From contig NC_059368.1 in assembly GCF_019703515.2 (NCBI RefSeq), positions 35,366,735 to 35,430,734 on the forward strand: a stretch of DNA of 64,000 bases, written 5' to 3'. Each line of letters begins with the position of its first letter. Within the stretch, counting starts at the first letter, position 1. A program made the translations under genes and the position numbers. The notes under the pieces are model-generated. The model was given only the letters and a program-made list of their open reading frames with translations. It had not been told where the DNA came from and searched no databases. This stretch comes from Myxocyprinus asiaticus. Its lineage: Eukaryota; Chordata; Actinopteri; Cypriniformes; Catostomidae. Below, piece after piece: positions 10,287-49,331 of the stretch.

Positions 10287-12776
10287 ATGACTGCGACTGT
10301 TGTGTCTCCTTTCTTCGACTTCGAAGTGACGAATAATAAGGTAATTTAGTGTTTTTGGGAAGTTCTTTAAAGCGTTTCTATCAGTTTATTTAAACGTGGA
10401 ACAGGCCATATGTCGAATGTTTCGTAGTTTGAGATACATTCTGTATTCTACAGCGATGTCACACTTTTTTGGCTTATGTTTGTTAGAGCTGGACGGGAGG
10501 AGGGAATCTTGCGCGTGTTCTTGATCTAATCTTGTGGCTTCAATGATCTGCAGTCATCGATTAGGAAATCGATTAGGAAAGAAAGACATGCAGACTCTTA
10601 CTGTTCCCTTCGTTGTGTATATACATCATCAGGAAGTTCGTCGCACAAGTTATGTTGTGTATTTGCTTTTAATGCGAGAGGAGGCCACATGTTTAGTTTT
10701 CATTTAAATTAAAACAAGGAGTACTTAGTATATAGCATGGGAAACGTGTTTGTATTAGACTTTAATATATGTATTTCTAATTGACTTTTTATCCTCTTGA
10801 GTAACAGTGGTTTTAACCTAAAAATGAAAGCATTTTAAAATGGTTTCTTATATTGTCTTAATTTAGTTCTCTCTTTTACAATTTATTGGTTAGTTGTATT
10901 GGTATTATTATATAAGGTCTATAAGAATTTAAGTATTGTGCTGTGTGACCATGCAGCTGTGACATAGAAGCAAAATAGTTTCAACAGAACGCATTAAGGG
11001 GCGTTCACGCAGGACGCGTTTTGCATTCAAAAACAGCTAGACGCAACGGAAAGGAGACTCGTCGCGAGATTTTACACGGCATGCTGGGAAAAAACTGCGC
11101 GACGCAACGGTCGAAGACGCAAAGCGTTCGTCTGACGCATGTGCACACAGATCAACAACTAAAAAAATAGCGCAGAAGGGGCAAGAACGCATCCGCTGTA
11201 AACGATGAGTTTGCTTCATTTCATACGTAAACTACTTTAGTTCGTAAATTTACTATACTGGGAACCTGTCGTGATCAATGAGAGGGGTTATTATGTTCTC
11301 ATCCTCAACTGAATAATAAAATATCAGAAATATTTTTTTGTAATGCAAAGCCAGAATAATATGGGGGTTTAAAACGTAGTTGTAGCATTAATGTATGTGG
11401 CCTGAAGTCTTAAAGTTTCACATAAGTGGTGTGTAATGAATCATTACGGTATTGTGCGCCATTTCTGCAGTTACTGCGTAACATGCATGAGTCTCACACG
11501 GTCTAGATAACCTTTTACGGCTTAGTAAACCTTTCACTTTTTAAGAGACTGGGTAGGTTAAAACTGCAGGGCCATTAGTATTATCTTTTAAAAAAATAAT
11601 TGAAAAAAAATAAAAAATCCCCAAATCATAACTGCACACAGGCCTTTAGTGCACTGTAGGCCTGACCTGAAGACCACGGACATGTCATAAACTCTCACTA
11701 GCCACATCTGGAGCAAAGGGAGTCATATTTATGCCAAATATTTGAGATGTTCTTGTTTACTTCATTTTCAGAACAGTAAGGTGATGAACAACAACAGTAC
11801 TCTCTCCAGTCCCCACTTACAGTCTGTCCCCTCCACTGGTCCCAACACCCCCTTTACGCCCACCGGGTCCCTGCTGGACAGGAAAGTGGTGGGTAGCCCT
11901 TCAGTGGGACTCTTTCAGCGTCGCCACTCTGTTTCCGTTACCAGCTCCAAATCAACACAGAACCAGTTTATTAACAGTCTCAAGATGGATGGCTCAGCCT
12001 CCATGAGTGTGAGCAGCAACAACAAGGAGAACCGCTTTCGGGACCGGTCCTTCTCTGAAACCGGGGAGCGTCTAGGGCCAAGCAACATCACGTGCATTAG
12101 TGCCAACGGGAACAGCCAGGTCAACTCGAGTCGCTATAAGACCGAACTCTGCAGGCCCTTCGAGGAGAACGGCACTTGTAAATATGGTGATAAGTGCCAG
12201 TTTGCCCATGGGATGCATGAGCTTCGTAGTCTCAATCGCCACCCCAAGTACAAGACTGAACTTTGTCGCACCTTCCACAGCATCGGGTACTGCCCATACG
12301 GGCCACGCTGCCACTTCATCCACAATGCAGAGGAGCGCCGCGGACCCCCTCCTCTCTCCGCCTTTAACAAGATGGAGCGCCCTCGCCTTCATCACAGCTA
12401 CAGTTTCACCGGTTTCACGAGCTCAAGTGGCTCCCAGGACAGCCCGACCTCTGTCACGCCTCCGCCCATGTTTTCCACAGAGGACATCAATGAGTGGCCC
12501 AGCAACCCCTTTACTTACTCTAGTCAAGAGCTTGCCAACCTGTTTGGGCCCAGTTTAGGTGGTACCACTGTCCCCGAGCTGTCTGGACCTCACTCACCAA
12601 CTGCACCTTCCTTCTTTAGGCCCATGTCGGAGTCTCCACCCAGTCCCCCAGACTCCCTCTCTGATCAAGAGGGCTACCAGAGCAGCCTGGGCAGTCAGAG
12701 CGGATCTGAGTCACCAGTGCTGGATGCGACACGCCGCCTTCCCATCTTCAGCAGACTCTCTACCTCTGACGATTAA
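10287..12776 (+). CDS. zfp36l1: ZFP36L1-like tandem CCCH zinc-finger mRNA-decay protein (two coding exons: 10287-10340, 11772-12776)
   Basis: Encodes a 352-residue RNA-binding protein of the TTP/ZFP36 family, which binds AU-rich elements in 3' UTRs and recruits the CCR4-NOT deadenylase in the cytoplasm. Exon 1 gives [18 protein letters not shown] and ends at a GT donor (10341). Exon 2 begins after a pyrimidine-rich CAG acceptor (11771) in phase 0. Two C-x8-C-x5-C-x3-H fingers lie at about residues 145-164 and 183-202, each led by YKTELCR. Family phosphorylation motifs are RRHSVS (about 69-73), RDRSFSE (about 109-115) and HHSYSF. The end, [14 protein letters not shown], is the conserved CNOT1-binding tail. 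[10 protein letters not shown] and [12 protein letters not shown] fit ZFP36L1 better than ZFP36L2. The start has A at -3. An a or b fish paralogue cannot be chosen here. Confidence 0.93.
10341..11771 (+). other. zfp36l1: zfp36l1 intron 1 with a GC-rich insertion-like block
   Basis: The single intron (1431 bases) separates the short first coding exon from the rest, matching the two-exon layout of ZFP36-family genes. Boundaries are AAG/GTAATT and TTTTCAG/AAC. A CpG-rich block at about 10995-11205, beginning GGGGCGTTCACGC, stands out from its AT-rich surroundings and resembles one end of a fish MITE family; no matching opposite end was found. A short tandem ATCGATTAGGAA occurs near 10557-10578. 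Confidence 0.8.
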
Positions 12777-24623: not shown

Positions 24624-24945
24624 CAAATCAAATCAATCAAATCAAATCACTTTATTGTCACACAGCCATATACACAAGTGCAATAGTGTGTGAAATTCTT
24701 GGGTGCAGTTCCGATCAACATAGCAGTCGTGACAGTGATGAGACATATACCAATTTACAATAACATCAAATGAACACAGCACAATTTAAACATCTGATAT
24801 ACACATAATTACACTCAACAATATACAAATAATAACATACACTGTACAGTATACAATACGCACTATATAGATACACATTATTCAATAAAAATAAAAAATA
24901 AAAATATATAAAAAAGTAATTATAGTATATATAGAATGTACAGTA
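24624..24945 (-). repeat. Retroelement 3' end with TTTGAT-repeat tail (minus strand)
   Basis: On the - strand the sequence ends in repeated TTTGAT units (24628-24652), preceded by a TGTGACAATAAAGTG-type end. The rest is AT-rich non-coding. It interrupts the repeat copy at 23557-24623 and abuts the DIRS fragment. I recognise the body as a common fish retroelement 3' region; family not assigned. Confidence 0.5.
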
Positions 24946-25476
24946 TTGTACGATATGAGACCACTTCAGCACTGGCTTCAGACTCGAGTCCCGAGATGGG
25001 CATGGCACCACGGGACACATCACGTGGTCATCACGCTGATCTGTCACCGCCTCTTCAGCCCTTGGACCGACCTTGCATTTCTATGGGCAGGGGTTCCCCT
25101 AGAGCAGGTCTCCAGGCACGTCATGGTTATGACGTATGCCTCCAAGATGGGCTGGGGCGCACAGGCACACAACGGGCACAAAGCCACCGGCTCCTGTACT
25201 GGCACGTGGCTGCGTTGGCACATCAACTGCCTTGAGTTGTTTGTAGTACTGCTTGCCCTGTTGAGGTTCCGGCCGTTGATCCAGGGCAAGCACGTGTTGG
25301 TCCGGACAGACAACACGGCGACGGTAGTGTACATCAACCGTCAACGCAGTCTACGCTCCCGTTACATGTCAAAACTCGCCCGCCGTCTCCTCCTCTGGAT
25401 TCACCAGCGCCTCGAGTTGCTACGAGCCACTCACATCCCGGGCGACCTCAACACTGCAGCGGATGTGCTGTCATGA
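24946..25476 (+). pseudogene. DIRS RT connection/RNase H fragment
   Basis: The open frame of about 176 residues begins MYDMRPLQHWLQTRVPRWAW and continues into a DIRS RNase H domain with HINCLELFVVLLALLRF (acidic Glu), VRTDNTATVVYINRQ (acidic Asp) and a final IPGDLNTAADVLS. The first catalytic aspartate, expected in a TDAS-like motif, is a tyrosine (MTYASKMGWG), so the nuclease would be inactive. All polymerase motifs upstream are lost. It ends in a stop overlapping the recombinase frame by 4 bases. Confidence 0.85.
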
Positions 25477-26577
25477 CAGGTTACACTCAGGGGAGAGTGA
25501 AGACTCCACCCCCAGGTGGTCCAGCTGATTTGGAGTCGATTCGATCAAGCACAGGTAGACCTGTTTGCTTCCCGGGAATCCTCCCTTGCCTGCTTTGGTA
25601 TGCCCTGACTGAGGCACCCCTCAGTATAGACACACTGGCACACAGCTGGCCCCCTGGACTACGCAAATATCCATTTCCCCCAGTGAGCCTACTTGCACAG
25701 ACCCTGTGCAAGGTCAGGGAGGACGAGGAGCAGATTGTCCTAGTAGCACCCTACTGGCCCACCCAGACGTGGTTCTCGGACCTCACGCTCCTCGCGACAG
25801 CCCCCCTGGCGAATTCCCCTGAGGAAGGACCTTCTTTCTCAGGGACGGGTAACCATCTGGCACCTGCGACCAGACCTCTGGAATCTCCAAGTCTGGCCCT
25901 TGGACGGGACGTGGAAGACCTAAGTGGCCTACCACCCGCAGTGGTAGACACAATCACTCAGGCTAGGGCTCCCTCTACGAGGTGCCTGTATGCCTTGAAG
26001 TGGCGTCTGTTCGCTAAGTGGTGTTCTTCCCGACGCGAAGACCCACAGAGATGCACAGTCGGATCGGTGCTTTCCTTCCTGCAGAAGAGGCTGGAGGGGC
26101 AGCTGTCACCGTCCACCTTGAAGGTGTATGTAGCCGCCATTTCGGCACATCACGAGGCAGTGGATGGTAAGTATTTGGGGAAGCACGACTTGATCATCAG
26201 GTTCCTGAGAGGCGCTAGGAGGTATAATCCCTCCAGACTGTGCCTCATGCCCTTGTGGGACCTCTCTGTAGTCCTTTGGGGTCTACGGCCAGGATGTGCC
26301 ACCCCCCGTGGGGTTACGAGCCCACTCTACTGGGAGTGTAGCGGCCTCCTGGGCCCTGACCAGTGGCGGCTCTTTGGCAGACACATGCAGAGCAGCGGGC
26401 TGGGCAACACCCAACACCTTTGCGAGGTTCTATAATCTCTGGTTTGAGCTGGTATCATCCCATGTGTTGTCAGGCCGAACAGGTAAGTTCCGGGACAGCT
26501 GGCCGGGTGTACCACTTGCGCCTTTCCCCTCCCATGAGGTGAAGACATGCGCTTTTGACTCCCAGTCGTGTTCATAA
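25473..26577 (+). pseudogene. DIRS tyrosine recombinase, frameshifted and internally deleted
   Basis: The N-terminal core-binding part is readable (LPPAVVDTITQARAPSTRCL, then WRLFAKWCSSRRED and SPSTLKVYVAAISAHHEAV). After PLWDLSVVLWGLRPG the sequence jumps to another frame, starting at 26296, with the C-terminal catalytic end (GLRAHSTGSVAASWALTSGG, WATPNTFARFYNL). The block with the first catalytic arginine is missing. The H-x-x-R motif reads HSTG, so its arginine is lost too, while the terminal tyrosine (FARFY) remains. Earlier indels are likely near 25500-25560. Non-functional. Confidence 0.85.
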
Positions 26578-27186
26578 GTTGTGATCTCTGGATGACTTTC
26601 CTCCTTAGCCCTGTGGCAGACAAGTTTACGGAGAAACTCGCTGCAGGCCCAGTACGTGTGCTAATTAGGCCCTGTACTGAGGTAGGTGCTCCACATGTGG
26701 TGGTTCCCCGTAGGTGACCCCATGTGATAACTTCCGCTAAATTGTTTCCCTGTCGGTAAACTGCGTCTTCCTTGGGCAGAGGCCCCTCTGCCCCCAGTCA
26801 CCATGTTTGTAGAAACTCCTCCCTCCTCGGGTAGGACCTACCATGGGACTTCTCCACATGACATACTTCCGACAACACTTGGTAAGACCATGTGACGTAT
26901 TTCCACTAAAAATACCCCCCCCCTTTTTTTTTTCTCTGGGCGGGGTGTGGTCTCTACTGTGTCTTCCCCCCCCCCCTACGTAGACATTATGGCCCCCAGT
27001 TGGTTAACAAATTCCACTCTTTTTGGCTGGGCTAGCCTGTCCCTATTTTTTGGGCAGTCGACTTGTTCCCGAAGGACCGTTCGACGCTCATAAGAGTATT
27101 GGAGGAGGTTATGTGATGGCCTGGTGCGCTGGCTACGAGGCACACAGCAGTCTGCCCATCTCGCACCGCTAGTCCACATATAGGGA

Positions 27187-27567
27187 CCCCTAGTGTCACT
27201 ACATCGACACAATGTCGAGTGAGTGACAGATAGGGAACATCCTGGTTACTTTCGTAACCTCCGTTCCCTGATGGAGGGAACAAGACGTTGTGTCCCTCTT
27301 GCCACAACACTGAACTATCCGCTGAAATGGCGGGACCTTGTCTCGGCTCCTCAGCACAAAACCTGAATGAGTGGTTGCATACCAGCTCCTTTTATACCCG
27401 TATGTCCAGGGGAGTGGCATGCAAATTCCACTCGCCAATTCCCATTGGCCTTTTTTAAAAAAGCAGAGGTGTTTGGGGCTTCCAAGAGTTACCCCTAGTG
27501 TCACTACATCGACACAATGTCTCGTTCCCTCCATCAAGGAACGGAGGTTACTAAAGTAACCAGGACA
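27187..27567 (+). repeat. DIRS terminal-repeat region with internal inverted and direct repeats
   Basis: The phrase TAGTGTCACTACATCGACAC occurs twice in direct orientation (about 27189 and 27492). A block at 27239-27282 (CTGGTTACTTTCGTAACCTC) is repeated inverted at 27524-27567. Read on the - strand there is GGTATAAAAGGAGCTGG, a TATA-type promoter. The same terminus appears with the same + strand reading at 42685-42810, although that element is coded on the other strand. That is what inverted terminal repeats predict. Confidence 0.7.
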
Positions 27568-29069: not shown

Positions 29070-29366
29070 GTGTTTGTATATGGCCATATACCAGATTTAA
29101 ATATCAGAAAATGTAAATATTGCAACAGTCCTAATTATTGAATCCTCATATATCTTTTTAGTTTACAGATTTATTGTATATCTGTTTTAACCTTAGATAT
29201 GTTTTCTTGCATTACCTAACTGCACCATAATTTGATGACCAAACATTCGTTGTGGCAATGTATTTGATTACGTTGTGACAACCGGAAAAGTGAATTTTCT
29301 ATATTCGGTGCCGGTCCGTCATTACGACGTTGTGGCAACATCGAGGAACAATAGTTCTAAGTATGT
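29070..29366 (+). repeat. Local duplication, copy A
   Basis: Shares an alignable stretch with 31556-31720 plus 32105-32275, including CCAGATTTAAATATCAGA, TACAGATTTATTGTAT, ATTTGATGACCAA and GTGACAACCGGAAAAGT. Direct orientation. It ends at CAATAGTT, which corresponds to the uninterrupted integration site of the solo LTR in copy B. Another short related piece is GAACTCTAATGGTATTTGTT near 30548. Confidence 0.7.
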
Positions 29367-31555: not shown

Positions 31556-31784
31556 CGGCTGTATATGGCCATTTACCAGATTTAAATATCAGACAATGTA
31601 AAAATGGCAACAGGCCTAATTACTGAATCCTCATTTGTGTTTATAGCTTACAGATTTATTGTATGTCTGTTTTAAACTTGGATAAGTTTTATTGCATTCT
31701 CTGAGGCAGAAAATTATAATACAAAAATAATTAAGGGTCCTTCAATACCCACAGCTTTCACCTAAATTTTATAAAAAAAAAAAA

Positions 31785-31863
<79 letters not shown>

Positions 31864-32275
31864 TTTGGTTGCTAAATGCATATTCAGTTATTATGCACTA
31901 AAATGTTTACATGTAATTGCATTAATTAACACAATTACAGGTGTATATAATGATGATTTGTGAGTTTTCACTGCAAAACAACCCAAAAAAAATAAAATAA
32001 CAAATGAGCAAATTGCATTGCAAAAAGCAGCAGCAAATTCAGCCATTTTGTAATTACAGCTAGCCAAATTACACTATTAGTTATTTAGTTATTTTATTAA
32101 ATTAGTTATTTCCTAACTACACCGTAATTTGATGACCAACCTTTAGTTGTGGCAATGTAACTGATTATGTAGTGACAACCGGAAAAGTTAAATTTCTGTA
32201 TTCGTTGCCGCAATGTAACTTTGGAGTGGTGCCAGTCCATCATGACGACATTGTGGCAAGGTCGTGGTTCAATAG
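31556..32275 (+). repeat. Local duplication, copy B, with a 380-bp insertion
   Basis: Direct-oriented partner of 29070-29366. Between about 31722 and 32105 it contains extra sequence absent from copy A, including a (TA)n/poly(T) tract. It ends at a solo LTR insertion. Confidence 0.65.
31791..31866. repeat. (TA)n followed by poly(T)
   Basis: About 55 bases of TA repeat and about 20 bases of T. Confidence 0.95.
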
Positions 32276-34287: not shown

Positions 34288-34291
34288 TTAA

Positions 34292-34939
34292 AGGGATAGT
34301 TCACCCAAAAATGAAAATTCTCTCATCATTTACTCACCCTCAGACCATCCCAGATGTGTATGACTTCCTTTCTTCTGCAGAACACAAATTAAGATTTTTA
34401 GAGGAATATTTTAGCTTTGTAGGTCAGTACAATGCAAGTGAATGTGTGCCAAAAATGCTCCAAAAAGCACATAAAGGCAGCATAAATGTAATCCATAAGA
34501 CTCCAGTAGTTAAATCCATATCTTCAGAAGTGATATGATAGGTGTGGGTGAGAAACAAATCAATATTTCAAATTTTTTGCTAGACATTCTTCTCCCTGCC
34601 CAGCAGGGGGCAATATGAAGAGAAGAATGTGAAAAACACAAGGAGAAGAATGTGAAAGTGATCTGTTTCTCTGTTTCTCATCCACACTTATCCCATAGCT
34701 TCTGAAGATATTGATTTAATCACTGTCTTATGGATTACGTTTATGCTGCCTTATTTAAAAAAAAATAGCTTTAAAATGTTGGCACCCATTCACTTGCATT
34801 TTATGGACCAAAAGAGCTGAAATATTCTTCTAAAAATCTTCATTTGTGTTCAGCAGAAGAAAGAAAGTCATACACATCTGGGATGGCATAAGGGTGAGTA
34901 AACGATGAGAGAATAACATTTTTTGGGTGAACTATCCCT
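34292..34939. mobile_element. TTAA-flanked palindromic MITE, complete
   Basis: TTAA at 34288-34291 and 34940-34943. Termini AGGGATAGTTCACCC and its exact inverted copy. Long arms include CCATCCCAGATGTGTATGAC. 648 bp, non-coding, same family as 19470-20083. The 75-residue frame at its left arm is the translated arm only. Confidence 0.85.
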
Positions 34940-35918
34940 TTAAGGGCTCTTGTCAGATCTGGATGAACTTGTCAAAAAGAAGAGAGGTTTAGAAACCTTT
35001 CTAGTAATTATTACGGTGAAAATGTCCCACAGGGACTTAATACAGTATATTATGCTGAAATATAAACCAAAGCAAGATCATATTTTATTAATGCCTACTT
35101 TCACTATTTCAAAGCTTTTAAAGTCCTGCGTGGATTCTTATTTCAGTGTAGTTACAGTTTTCAGTGTCTAAATAATTTAGATCATTAGTTCTGTACAGCA
35201 GTACTGCCACTACCCAAAACGCAGAGTATGAAGCCTGGGTAGGGCACCCATCCCGGTTACAGAACACTCGCTGTGTCTGAAACCGGCCCCTATCCACTAT
35301 ATAGTGCACTATTTTGGGTATCTGCCATTTTGTAGGAGTGTCTGAATTCTGAGTGAGCCACTTGTTGCCTACATTTGTTCACTCATTCTTACCCACAATG
35401 CACTCTAATTTTGAGTGTACATTTGATGCACACTCGACAACGGTTAATTGCCCATAATCCACCGCGTGGAAGACGTACGAGCTGGGAGTTTACTGCTTCC
35501 TTCACTGTGGCAATGTTTTATTTCATGCTGAATGTATTAAATTACTTTTTGACAAATCATTACTTGATTAAAATAACATAATAACATATAGAGAGGCAAA
35601 ACATACATTTTAAAATGTACTCTTTATTTATATTTATACAGAATGTTGCCATTAAGCTGAAGAATTCTTTATTTACTAAATAATTAACTGAGGTGATATT
35701 ATATTTTAACTCAGGAGACTGCACACAGTGGAAATGATAATTCTGTGGATGATTTAAATATTTGGTTATAGCATGTAGGTTATGATAACTTTGGTGCTGT
35801 TTATGATCGGATGAGAAATGCTACCCAGCTTGTATTGGAGTTTAAAGACACTAAAGTAAAACAAATAAATACAATAATGTACATTTGATAAAATGTGTTT
35901 ACTCTTTATATTAACATA

Positions 35919-37530
<1,612 letters not shown>

Positions 37531-41805: not shown

Positions 41806-42450
41806 TTAAAGTGCATGTAAACATACTGACTGTTGAAAAGACCAGGGGCCCAGGAACCAATCATTGAGCCACGAGGGTTCAGGGGAGAGTGGAGGGTTCC
41901 ACTCTAGCCTGACGCTCGCGGCTGCCCAGGAAAGCATGTCCGTCATCTCCACGCCGGCTTGAGACTGGGCGACCACACCCGAAGGAGGGAGCCCAGCCGA
42001 GGCGTCTGCATCAGAGTGGATGAGCCTGCTCTCAGATGCTGCGCTCGATAACTCATCGTCTTCCTGGGCTCCGAATAAGAGGTTGAACTTGCCGTGAGAC
42101 GAGCCGACCGGGGCAAGCAAGCGTGCTGGGGAATGGGAGGTCCGTGGGGGTTTTCCCAGTGGAGGTGCTCCCACTGAGGTCCCCAAATTGCCCCCAGTGC
42201 TAACCGGCACGGCCTCATAGCCGTAGGTAGAAGGACCGAGGCGGGGAGCCGCTGGGGTGGCTTGCTTTTTTACAAATGCAAGCCACGACCGCAACGTTGC
42301 CATGGTCATGTTCTCGCAATGAGGACATGATCCATCCATGAACAATGTCTCCGCATGAGCAGCGCCCAGACATGTAAGACAGCGATCGTGGCCATCAGAA
42401 GCGGAGAGATAACGACCGCAACCAGGAATAACACACAAACGGATAGGCAT
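41806..42450 (-). pseudogene. DIRS gag-like ORF, truncated
   Basis: About 214 residues from MPIRLCVIPGCGRYL. Cysteine pairs C-x4-C, C-x2-C (RCLTCLG) and C-x2-C (CPHCENM) in the first 60 residues form a zinc-binding N-terminus typical of fish DIRS ORF1. The rest is rich in proline and serine. The open frame extends further upstream to 42564, but this ATG begins the family-like part. The C-terminal half is missing. Confidence 0.7.
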
Positions 42451-42810
42451 CTTTAAAAAAACGTTCCATGTGTGCCGCTCTTTTAGAATGAAAATATACT
42501 CTTTTTTGAATATACTCTTTTTGTTATTCTGCCGAAGTGCGCAGGGGCATTCTCTGCACTCCATGGGTGCAGAGGGGGAGAAGCTGCTGAAATGCGCTGT
42601 AAAATCCAGCAGATGAGGTGAATGAACTCGCGGATGAATTCAGCTTCAATGAATAGAACTGCTCGGCTCCGAAATTAAAATCTGAATGAGTGGTTGCATA
42701 CCAGCTCCTTTTATACCTGTATGTCTGGGGGAGTGGGAATTTCCATTGGCCTTTTTTCAAAGATCAGAGGTGTTTAGGGCTCCCAAGAGTGACCCCTAGT
42801 GTCACTACAT

Positions 42811-43077
42811 TAATTAATTTATTTAATTAATTTTTAATTATATTTATTTATCACACATTATACATTTGCACATATATAGTGAAATTCTTTTTTTCCCACA
42901 TATCCCAGCTAAGCTGGGGTCAGAGTGCAGGGTCAGCCATGATACAGCACCCCTAGAGCAGATAGGGTCAAGGGCCTTGCTCGAGGGCCCAACAGTGGCA
43001 TCTTGGTGGTGCTGGGGCTTGAACTCCTGACCTTCTGATTAGTAACCCAGAACCTTAACCACTGAGCCACCACTGGC
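42811..43077 (-). mobile_element. tRNA-derived SINE, full length, fused to U2
   Basis: Read on the - strand, the head TGGCTCAGTGGTTAAGG fits a pol III A box, and GGAGTTCAAGCCCC fits a B box, at tRNA-like spacing. The body includes ACTGTTGGGCCCT, CTTGACCCT and CCCCAGCTTAGCTGGGATA. The tail is a TAAATAA-type AT run (42811-42850). Directly upstream on the same strand is U2 snRNA sequence. Confidence 0.8.
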
Positions 43078-43248
43078 CCAAGATACTGCAATACCAAGTC
43101 GATACGTGGAGTGGACGGAGCAAGCCCCGCTTCCATCTCCCAGGCCCAAAAAGCAATTTAATATATGGTCCCCGGATAGGAGACGTATCAGATATTAAAC
43201 TGATAAGAACCGATACTACACTTGATCTTAGCCAAAAGGCCGAGAAGC
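43078..43248 (-). ncRNA. U2 snRNA retropseudogene (5' about 170 nt)
   Basis: On the - strand, GCTTCTCGGCCTTTTGGCTA begins at what would be U2 nucleotide 4. The branch-site recognition sequence TGTAGTATC and ATCAGTTTAATATCTGATAC follow. Later blocks are TATATTAAAT, GGGAGATGGAA, GCTTGCTCCGTCCACTCCAC and TTGGTATTGCAGTA. About 170 of some 187 nt are present; the 3' stem-loop is replaced by a SINE. Scattered substitutions include A to C in the Sm site (CTTTTTGG). There is no snRNA-type promoter, because the upstream sequence is DIRS. Non-functional. Confidence 0.9.
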
Positions 43249-43304
43249 CTTTTGGCACACATCGACACATCGACACAACGTCGAGTGAGTGACAGATAGG
43301 GAAC

Positions 43305-44617
43305 AGACAGTAAAATGGCAGACACTGCAGGGCACATTCAGTAATCAAACAGACCATTACAAAGACTGGTGATGGTCTGTCTGGATAGTTTTTAATCAGA
43401 AACATGGTACTGTACAGAAAAGAAAATTTCTAAGTTACATGCGAAACAACAAATGTGCTGCCTGCCCCATTTACCGGTAATCCTGACGCAAAACTCAACG
43501 ATAACCCCGTTCGTGGTAATGAAAAACATTATGAAAAATACAATTGCCATTCAGCAGTGTAGTGGTATTGTAGGTCGAATATAAAACAAAAAGAAGCTTA
43601 TACATTGCATGTTTTATTTCATTTTTAAATTTTTTTTAAAGCTCTGATCCGGCGATGTCAGATAGGGTTTTACACTGCAAAAACACTTTTCTTAATTACT
43701 GTCTTTGTTTAGCTTCCAGAATTTTTTTTTTTTTTAACGACCTGAGAAGCATAAATGCGTAAGTTGGGTTAGGTTTATGCTTAATACACTAAAATATTTA
43801 TTCTGTCAACAAGTCTTTACTACAATTATGTTTCTTAGGTAAAGTTATCTAAAAGATGCTTAGATATTTGTACATTAAATCAAGAATGATAAAGAAATTA
43901 TTTTTAGCAGCAGCGTCTATTCACATGCAACATCATTTAGGCTTCAGTCTGTATTATTCAAGGAGCTCTAAAATACCTGGAGAGAGCTATAGGTTAGCAT
44001 TCCCATTCATCTCTATTGCGGTGCTCAGCTGGCGTGGGGTCCCCCCCCCCGACTCCCCTGGAAATATGCACAGTCTTGGCACCATGTGACTTGCTCTGCA
44101 GCTGCAGAAAAATTACATCCTGACAACGCTCACAACGTGCACACGGTAATGGTAGGCTACAGTAAGGTGAGTGTGGTCTGGGTGATCAAATTAGACAAAA
44201 AGTGAATTAAATAACTATAAATAAATTACCAATGGAATTTTACACCAGACCTTGAAAAGTGACGATTAGCACAATTAAAAATGGATTGATGTACGGTCTC
44301 ATGAATTATGCATTACAATTGAATTCATGTTTTGAATGTGTTTTTTAGCATGTTGCTATAATCAATATTGTTTAAATAACCATGACACAAGACTGCAAAA
44401 TCAAGAGTTCCCGTTTGTTTAGTAGACTACTCAGATTAAATCTACGCCAAGTTTTATACATAAGGCCCAAGGATTGCTGGTTACCAGCATATGCTGGTGT
44501 GCTGGTGTCCCCACCAGGCTTCTTAACTAGCTTAGCTAGTTAACCAGCAAGCCTCCCTTGGTTGATGAGCTTCATAACAAAGTCCATGGTCTTCTCAGCA
44601 GGGTTGCCTGAGAACAT
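43305..44617. other. No gene; 16-bp palindrome ACCAGCATATGCTGGT near 44477-44500
   Basis: No supported coding sequence. A perfect palindrome with neighbouring GCTGGT repeats near 44475-44550 resembles a fish repeat terminus. Homopolymers lie around 43720-43736 and 44041-44050. Confidence 0.45.
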
Positions 44618-47766: not shown

Positions 47767-49331
47767 CAGGTGCATCTCAATAAATTAGAATGTCGTGGAA
47801 AAGTTCATTTATTTCAGTAATTCAACTCAAATTGTGAAACTCGTGTATTAAATAAATTCAGTGCACACAGACTGAAGTAGTTTAAGTCTTTGGTTCTTTT
47901 AATTGTGATGATTTTAGCTCACATTTAACAAAAACCCACCAATTCACTATCTCAAAAAATTAGAATATGGTGACATGCCAATCAGCTAATCAACTCAAAA
48001 CACCTGCAAAGGTTTCCTGAGCCTTCAAAATGGTCTCTCAGTTTGGTTCACTAGGCTACACAATCATGGGGAAGACTGCTGATCTGACAGTTGTCCAGAA
48101 GACAATCATTGACACCCTTCACAAGGAGGGTAAGCCACAAACATTCATTGCCAAAGAAGCTGGCTGTTCACAGAGTGCTGTATCCAAGCATGTTAACAGA
48201 AAGTTGAGTGGAAGGAAAAAGATGCACAACCAACCGAGAGAACCGCAGCCTTATGATTGTCAAGCAAAATCGATTCAAGAATTTGGGTGAACTTCACAAG
48301 GAATGGACTGAGGCTGGGGTCAAGGCATCAAGAGCCACCACACACAGACATGTCAAGGAATTTGGCTACAGTTGTCGTATTCTTCTTGTTAAGCCACTCC
48401 TGAACCACAGACAACGTCAAAGGCGTCTTACCTGGGCTAAGGAGGAGAACTGGACTGTTGCCCAGTGGTCCAAAGTCCTCTTTTCAGATGAGAGCAAGTT
48501 TTGTATTTCATTTGGAAACCAAGGTCCTAGAGTCTGGAGGAAGGGTGGAGAAGCTCATAGCCCAAGTTGCTTGAAGTCCAGTGTTACGTTTCCACAGTCT
48601 GTGATGATTTGGGGTGCAATGTCATCTGCTGGTGTTGGTCCATTGTGTTTTTTGAAAACCAAAGTCACTGCACCCATTTACCAAGAAATTTTGGAGCACT
48701 TCATGCTTCCTTCTGCTGACCAGCTTTTTAAAGATGCTGATTTCATTTTCCAGGAGGATTTGGCACCTGCCCACACTGCCAAAAGCTCCAAAAGTTGGTT
48801 AAATGACCATGGTGTTGGTGTGCTTGACTGGCCAGTAAACTCACCAGACCTGAACCCCATAGATAATCTATGGGGTATTGTCAAGAGGAAAATGAGAAAC
48901 AAGAGACCAAAAAATGCAGATGAGCTGAAGGCCACTGTCAAAGAAACCTGGGCTTCCATACCACCTCCGCAGTGCCACAAACTGATCACCTCCATGCCAC
49001 GCCAAATTGAGGCAGTAATTAAAGCAAAAGGAGCCCCTACCAAGTATTGAGTACATATACAGTAAATGAACATACTTTCCAGAAGGCTAACAATTCACTA
49101 AAAATGTTTTTTTTTATTGGTCTTATGATGTATTCTAATTTTTTGAGATAGTGAATTGGTGGGTTTTTGTTAAATGTGAGCCAAAATCATCACAATTAAA
49201 AGAACCAAAGACTTAAACTACTTCAGTCTGTGTGCATTGAATTTATTTAATACACGAGTTTCACAATTTGAGTTGAATTACTGAAATAAATGAACTTTTC
49301 CACGACATTCTAATTTATTGAGATGCACCTG
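47767..49331 (+). mobile_element. Tc1-like transposon, nearly intact, 201-bp inverted repeats
   Basis: 1565 bp flanked by TA (47765-47766, 49332-49333). Terminal inverted repeats 47767-47967 and 49131-49331, both starting CAGGTGCATCTCAATAAATT, differ at only about 2 of 201 positions by eye. The single gene inside is open apart from one frameshift. This is the youngest-looking transposon in the window. Confidence 0.92.
48066..49050 (+). pseudogene. Tc1-like transposase with a single frameshift and Glu-to-Asp at the third catalytic position
   Basis: Begins MGKTADLTVVQKTIIDTLHK (HTH). The frame shifts by one at an A run around 48216-48220 and then reads from KRCTTNRENRSLMIVKQNRF to the end, TKAKGAPTKY-like, stop at 49048-49050. 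First aspartate in LFSDESKF, second in QEDLAPAHTAKS. The third position, normally Glu in Tc1, reads NPIDNLWG, codon GAT at 48862-48864. The second and third residues are separated by 34, so it would be DD34D. Full length, about 328 codons. Could encode near-functional protein only if frame correction occurred. Confidence 0.88.

Follow-up and report, generated by a model that had tools for sequence, protein, structure and literature searches.

A U2 snRNA–SINE fusion within a DIRS-like terminus of Myxocyprinus asiaticus, probably a one-off chimeric retrocopy

The DNA analysed here is a stretch of 64,000 nucleotides of Myxocyprinus asiaticus contig NC_059368.1, hereafter called the window. The frame at 11766-12776 encodes a ZFP36L1-type protein, with a Pfam Tis11B_N domain and two zf-CCCH stretches. 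Among the best 120 of its 3061 protein matches, it reaches 93% to a Cyprinus carpio cluster, 91% to Xyrauchen texanus and 85% to Danionella cerebrum, the other named matches being at 77% or less. This pattern supports a cypriniform fish as the source. The locus of interest lies further along, between 42811 and 43256, where U2 snRNA sequence and a SINE are fused within a DIRS-like terminus. Its features are all carried by the minus strand and are listed below.

42738..42810 (−): 3′-side flank of the insert, a DIRS-like terminal sequence (73 nt, 90% to 27437-27509)
42803..42810 (−): 3′ copy of the candidate target-site duplication, reading CACTACAT on the plus strand, with ACAT at 42807-42810 as its exact part
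42811..43080 (−): tRNA-type SINE, 270 nt including the tail, with putative Pol III A and B boxes and an AT tail
42811..42862 (−): AT-rich 3′ tail of the SINE (29 A, 20 T, 3 G and 0 C in 52 nt)
43015..43024 (−): predicted Pol III box B, GTTCAAGCCC, exact to the consensus GWTCRANNCC
43059..43069 (−): predicted Pol III box A, TGGCTCAGTGG, exact to the consensus TRGYNNANNNG
43081..43248 (−): U2 snRNA nt 4-171; 152/168 to human U2, RF00004 at 145.4 bits, the Rfam structure line placing the cut within the stem-loop IV loop
43249..43256 (−): snap-back, an inverted copy of 43231-43238 that completes the hairpin GCCAAAAGGC-CGAGAA-GCCTTTTGGC (43231-43256)
43256..43262 (−): 5′ copy of the candidate target-site duplication, reading CACACAT on the plus strand, with one base in common with the snap-back
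43259..43274 (−): two tandem copies of the 8-bp unit ACATCGAC in the 5′ flank, where 27201-27208 and 27506-27513 each have a single copy
43267..43305 (−): 5′-side flank of the insert, a DIRS-like terminal sequence identical to 27201-27239 at 38 of 39 nt

The first-pass annotation had described about 170 nt of U2 and a SINE placed head to tail on the minus strand, sharing one AT-rich tail and interrupting a DIRS terminus whose intact form lies near 27.5 kb. This observation is confirmed: the U2 part measures 168 nt without gaps, the two parts have the same sense and meet at a direct junction, the only tail is that of the SINE, and the interrupted sequence is found unbroken elsewhere in the window, as detailed below. 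The outer ends proposed at 42811 and 43256 are consistent with the comparison of the flanks. The U2/SINE junction, formerly set near 43078, is now placed at 43080/43081.

Positions 42788-42810, at the 3′ side of the insert, are identical to 27182-27204 at 22 of 23 positions, and the two flank matches in 27182-27239 overlap by ACAT. Because the left and right flank matches adjoin there, 27182-27239 spans the insertion point unbroken. The joined flanks also match 27479-27516 (89%, with one gap). Both stretches are paralogous empty sites located within the same window. The frames at 24895-26435, situated 0.75 kb from 27182, contain an RT_RNaseH domain that scores above the cut-off (29.8 versus 24.8 bits) and a phage-integrase N-terminal domain that scores below it (18.5 versus 22.3), and the ORF at 41806-42639 has no Pfam match. 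The RNase H domain and the weak phage-integrase domain fit a DIRS element without amounting to proof of one. A 55-nt inverted repeat (27240-27294 and 27511-27565, 93% complementary) adjoins the DIRS-like terminal stretches; the copy that carries the insert ceases matching at 43305, ahead of where this repeat would start.

The match of the Rfam U2 model (RF00004) at 43057-43251 on the minus strand scores 145.4 bits, the gathering score being 46 (E 7.9e-30), and it is the sole Rfam match at the gathering threshold within the 64-kb window. Past 43081, that is beyond nt 171 of U2, the alignment goes through a 4-base insertion and then continues on SINE letters. The Rfam span of 1-192 therefore overstates the U2 part, and a U2 sequence reaching the end of the model was rejected on this ground. 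When compared with human U2, nt 4-171 (43248-43081) are identical at 152 of 168 positions. The 16 differences are unevenly distributed, with one among the 59 positions of nt 4-62 and 15 among the other 109; the probability of finding at most one difference in nt 4-62 by chance is 0.007. This unevenness suggests that many of the differences belong to the fish's own U2 or fall at weakly constrained positions, rather than reflecting an even decay after insertion. A functional U2 gene was considered and rejected: the 3′ stem is absent, DIRS sequence occupies the place of the promoter, and nt 99, which I take to be part of the Sm site, has a changed letter. A 74-aa frame runs across the junction, and a protein search with it gave one hit among 2 candidates (E 0.65, 26% of the query) that, by eye, aligned only with the U2 letters.

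On the SINE side, the predicted A and B boxes are 34 nt apart, and 11 nt separate box A from the U2/SINE junction. A SINE 5′ end is expected at such a place. A or T make up 49 of the 52 nt of the tail, and the SINE sense strand has no run of four T. The element had been annotated as tRNA-derived. Its exact A and B boxes agree with this description; ARAGORN finds no tRNA gene in the window, so the label rests on the boxes, and the predicted fold of the SINE head is not a cloverleaf. A second copy of the SINE was sought in the 64-kb window and not found. The 3′ part of the SINE is predicted to fold better than its shuffled versions (z −2.95, 0 of 200 as good). A GGATA motif is present at 42905-42901, outside any hairpin loop of the predicted fold; the available text of a paper on a cyprinid SINE ties this motif to recognition by an L2 enzyme (PMC2653535). 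With an L2-type tail defined as a 3′ hairpin bearing GGAUA in its loop together with an L2-derived end, an L2 recognition hairpin is not taken as proven for the present SINE, whose GGATA is not in a loop.

If U2 and the SINE had been inserted separately, each might be bounded by a duplication of its own, and the first-pass annotation had named such separate duplications as the sign of two independent insertions. None was found. Neither a duplication nor a tail lies between U2 and the SINE, at most 2 exact bases being common to the junction and an outer flank over 13 junction positions, and the 4-base words that any two of the three boundaries have in common are at chance level (0.888). It is thus very unlikely that a SINE entered the DIRS terminus and that a 3′-truncated U2 retrocopy later landed at the SINE 5′ end, or that the two arrived in the reverse order, since the second insertion would have had to strike the end of the SINE exactly, in the same sense and without a duplication. 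Such a history would draw support from the imperfect outer duplication and from human DNA, in which 3′-truncated U2 retrocopies are the rule: 57 of the 58 characterised human U2 copies are 3′-truncated, no copy belongs to the poly(A) class, and a link to a retrotransposon is noted for one (PMC4476161, available sections). According to the same sections, on the other hand, 3′-truncated U6 copies went undetected in platypus, where a stringent L2 acts.

The only exact repeat around the whole unit is ACAT, which is no better than chance, and a clean long target duplication was rejected because exact words do not exceed 4 bp. The longer candidate pair, CACTACAT and CACACAT, agrees at 7 of 8 positions with one indel, and 66 of 20,000 random pairs were as good; this randomisation test, like the one applied to the hairpin below, was framed after the sequence had been seen. 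The pair gives a weak indication of a duplication around the whole unit. How it is read depends on the extra ACATCGAC unit of the 5′ flank. If this unit was there before the SINE and U2 arrived, the 7-of-8 duplication directly adjoins the hairpin. If it arose later, the duplication is reduced to ACAT, and 10 bases (43257-43266) between the hairpin and the DIRS sequence are left unexplained.

The other end of the unit has a distinctive structure. Just past the U2 5′ end come 8 bases (43249-43256) that form the reverse complement of 43231-43238; a perfect 10-bp hairpin with a 6-nt loop therefore spans 43231-43256. When 20,000 random 12-nt flanks taken from the window were set next to the U2 end, five produced a stem of at least 10. 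Perfect 10-bp hairpins with loops of 3-10 begin at 158 places in the window, and long runs account for 149 of these. Hairpins as such are therefore not rare, and it is the placement of this one at the U2 end that is telling. Its simplest origin would be that the end of the cDNA folded on two bases and copied 8 more before being joined to the target. The inverted U2 copy that completes the hairpin is new in this analysis.

These observations lead me to propose, with a probability of roughly 0.7, that the insert is a one-off chimeric retrocopy produced by one target-primed, LINE-driven insertion, in which a template switch from SINE RNA to U2 RNA was followed by snap-back. The reverse transcriptase of a LINE, perhaps an L2-type one, would have begun at the AT-rich tail of a complete SINE RNA and copied it to its 5′ end. 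It would then have jumped to nt 171 of a U2 snRNA, within the stem-loop IV loop, and continued as far as nt 4. The 3′ end of the cDNA, which reads ...GC, could at this point have folded back onto the GC located 8 nt upstream and gained 8 nt (CTTTTGGC), which completed the 10-bp hairpin, and the hairpin-ended cDNA would finally have been joined to the DIRS target. The template-switch reading is favoured because the two parts have the same sense, a direct junction and one tail, because empty sites exist, because of the hairpin and of an outer duplication with an indel, and because the junction falls at the expected SINE 5′ end while U2 is cut in a loop. A single switch event would explain at once the order of the parts, the sole tail, the direct junction, the near-complete U2 5′ end and the hairpin. 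The first-pass annotation had left the choice between a one-off switch and the founder of a new family; I take one chimeric insertion, made by template switching, to be the best explanation. Against the one-event reading, the exact duplication is only ACAT, its longer form needs an indel, and the flank has an extra 8-bp unit. The U2 part, 3′-truncated with a near-complete 5′ end and in the same sense as the SINE, also differs from its counterparts in platypus and human chimeras.

A single reverse transcription might also be imagined on an RNA in which U2 RNA and SINE RNA had already been joined end to end. Primary Pol III transcripts carry a 5′ triphosphate, a poor end for ligation, and I find this route scarcely credible here, although its product and that of template switching are inseparable from sequence alone. 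RNA ligation is nevertheless one of the two routes proposed for U6/LINE-1 chimeras (PMC13174262, available text).

The founder alternative can be weighed from the layout of the promoter. Pol III transcription starts near its internal boxes, and T runs terminate it. Transcripts from the promoter of the SINE itself would begin near 43080 and leave U2 out, and the T5 run found inside U2 at 43152-43148 would stop Pol III. A self-propagating family is therefore disfavoured, unless it relies on an outside U2 promoter, and this layout argues against the insert being the founder of a new family. An outside promoter could be provided if, for example, a SINE sat at nt 171 of a U2 gene and read-through from the U2 promoter gave a fused RNA that was repeatedly inserted by a LINE. 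That the insert was copied from a composite U2-SINE family of this kind is unlikely, no other copy being present within the 64-kb window. It would, however, account for a U2 part that begins at nt 4, near the true 5′ end, as would a transcript from the U2 promoter, and the fused RNA would require no template switch; moreover, SINEs with U1- or U2-derived parts exist (cited in the available text of PMC13174262). That the insert descends from, or itself founded, a cypriniform family of U2-headed tRNA-SINEs arising by read-through from a U2 gene with a SINE at nt 171 seems to me quite unlikely.

The junction pattern and the SINE-body pattern each gave 0 matches in viral contigs and 0 in genome contigs, the SINE-head and U2 patterns gave 0 and 0 in viral contigs, and blastn of 42850-43256 against phages and plasmids returned no match. 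Because these are not fish-genome collections, the zero counts say little about copy number. The insertion is presumed to have occurred once. Crocodilian SINEU elements are said (by Kojima, in 2015) to form multicopy families with a U1- or U2-derived 5′ end. They resemble the present insert in having U1/U2-derived sequence at the 5′ end of a SINE; they differ from it in being multicopy, where one copy is known here, and the insert has a tRNA-type promoter behind U2.

Chimeras between snRNAs and retroelements are already on record. The available sections of PMC4476161 describe platypus U6 chimeras whose partner is L2 or Mon-1; of 40 chimeras, 72.5% have duplications of 1-9 bp, and almost all those with L2 are 5′-truncated. 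In Anolis, U6 is joined to L1, L2, RTE and AnolisSINE2, including six U6-AnolisSINE2 chimeras. They also report that the 3′ truncations of human snRNA copies nearly always fall in single-stranded segments, that human 3′-truncated snRNA chimeras are inverted with respect to L1 and ascribed to twin priming, and that one U6atac-Alu chimera has a 14-base duplication. U2 is among the snRNAs that form LINE-1 chimeras (PMC13174262, available text), and the accessible part of PMC2104539 mentions a fungus in which a non-coding RNA forms chimeras with both a SINE and a LINE, together with the mouse chimera B2-U6-L1.

The U6-Mon-1 chimeras of platypus and the U6-AnolisSINE2 chimeras are like the present insert in that an snRNA is fused to a SINE presumed to rely on L2 for its mobilisation and that template switching has been proposed; U6-Mon-1 is also alike in its small duplications (PMC4476161, available sections). 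By contrast, the insert involves U2, in a cypriniform fish, with a 3′-truncated U2, a self-copied 5′ hairpin and a role for L2 that is possible rather than established. Mammalian snRNA/LINE-1 chimeras are likewise bipartite single-event insertions with an snRNA part (PMC13174262 and PMC4476161, available text). Here the 3′ part is a SINE and both parts have the same sense, whereas the human 3′-truncated chimeras are inverted. As to the SINE itself, the HAmo SINE of cyprinids also has a tRNA-type promoter and short AT-rich 3′ repeats, and it is described in the available text as a tRNA-Lys-related element with a 150-bp consensus, TAAATG repeats and a LINE2 tail (PMC2653535). The present SINE, with 270 nt and another AT tail, is set apart from it by description only.

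No U2-SINE chimera in fish was found in literature titles and abstract openings, mostly of papers outside subscription, nor in the available parts of PMC4640811, PMC5753468, PMC7922186, PMC13011446, PMC6951006, PMC3292006 and PMC10886601. The novelty is lower than the first-pass annotation estimated, since fusions of snRNAs to presumably L2-mobilised SINEs have been published for platypus and Anolis (PMC4476161, available sections). Taken as a single event, the insert contributes modestly to what is known of the process, by bringing U2 and, within the reach of the literature search, a ray-finned fish into the record of snRNA-SINE chimeras. It also seems to retain the final step of the reaction, in which the end of the cDNA copies itself before being joined to the target, and, if further copies exist, it would offer a case for how SINEs gain new heads.

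The window contains other mobile or repeated sequences. Two frames are of the Tc1/mariner transposase type, one at 48208-49050 on the plus strand (DDE_3 and HTH_Tnp_Tc3_2, 280 codons without a stop) and one at 36667-37158 on the minus strand (HTH_Tnp_Tc3_2 and a Sleeping Beauty-type HTH). An inverted repeat of 165 nt (34288-34452 and 34779-34943, 87% complementary, 326 nt apart) perhaps represents the ends of a short DNA transposon. Finally, two direct-repeat families, one of 139 nt (29075 and 31560, 88% alike) and one of 103 nt (29211 and 32108, 86% alike), follow each other in the same order and occupy 29075-29313 and 31560-32210.
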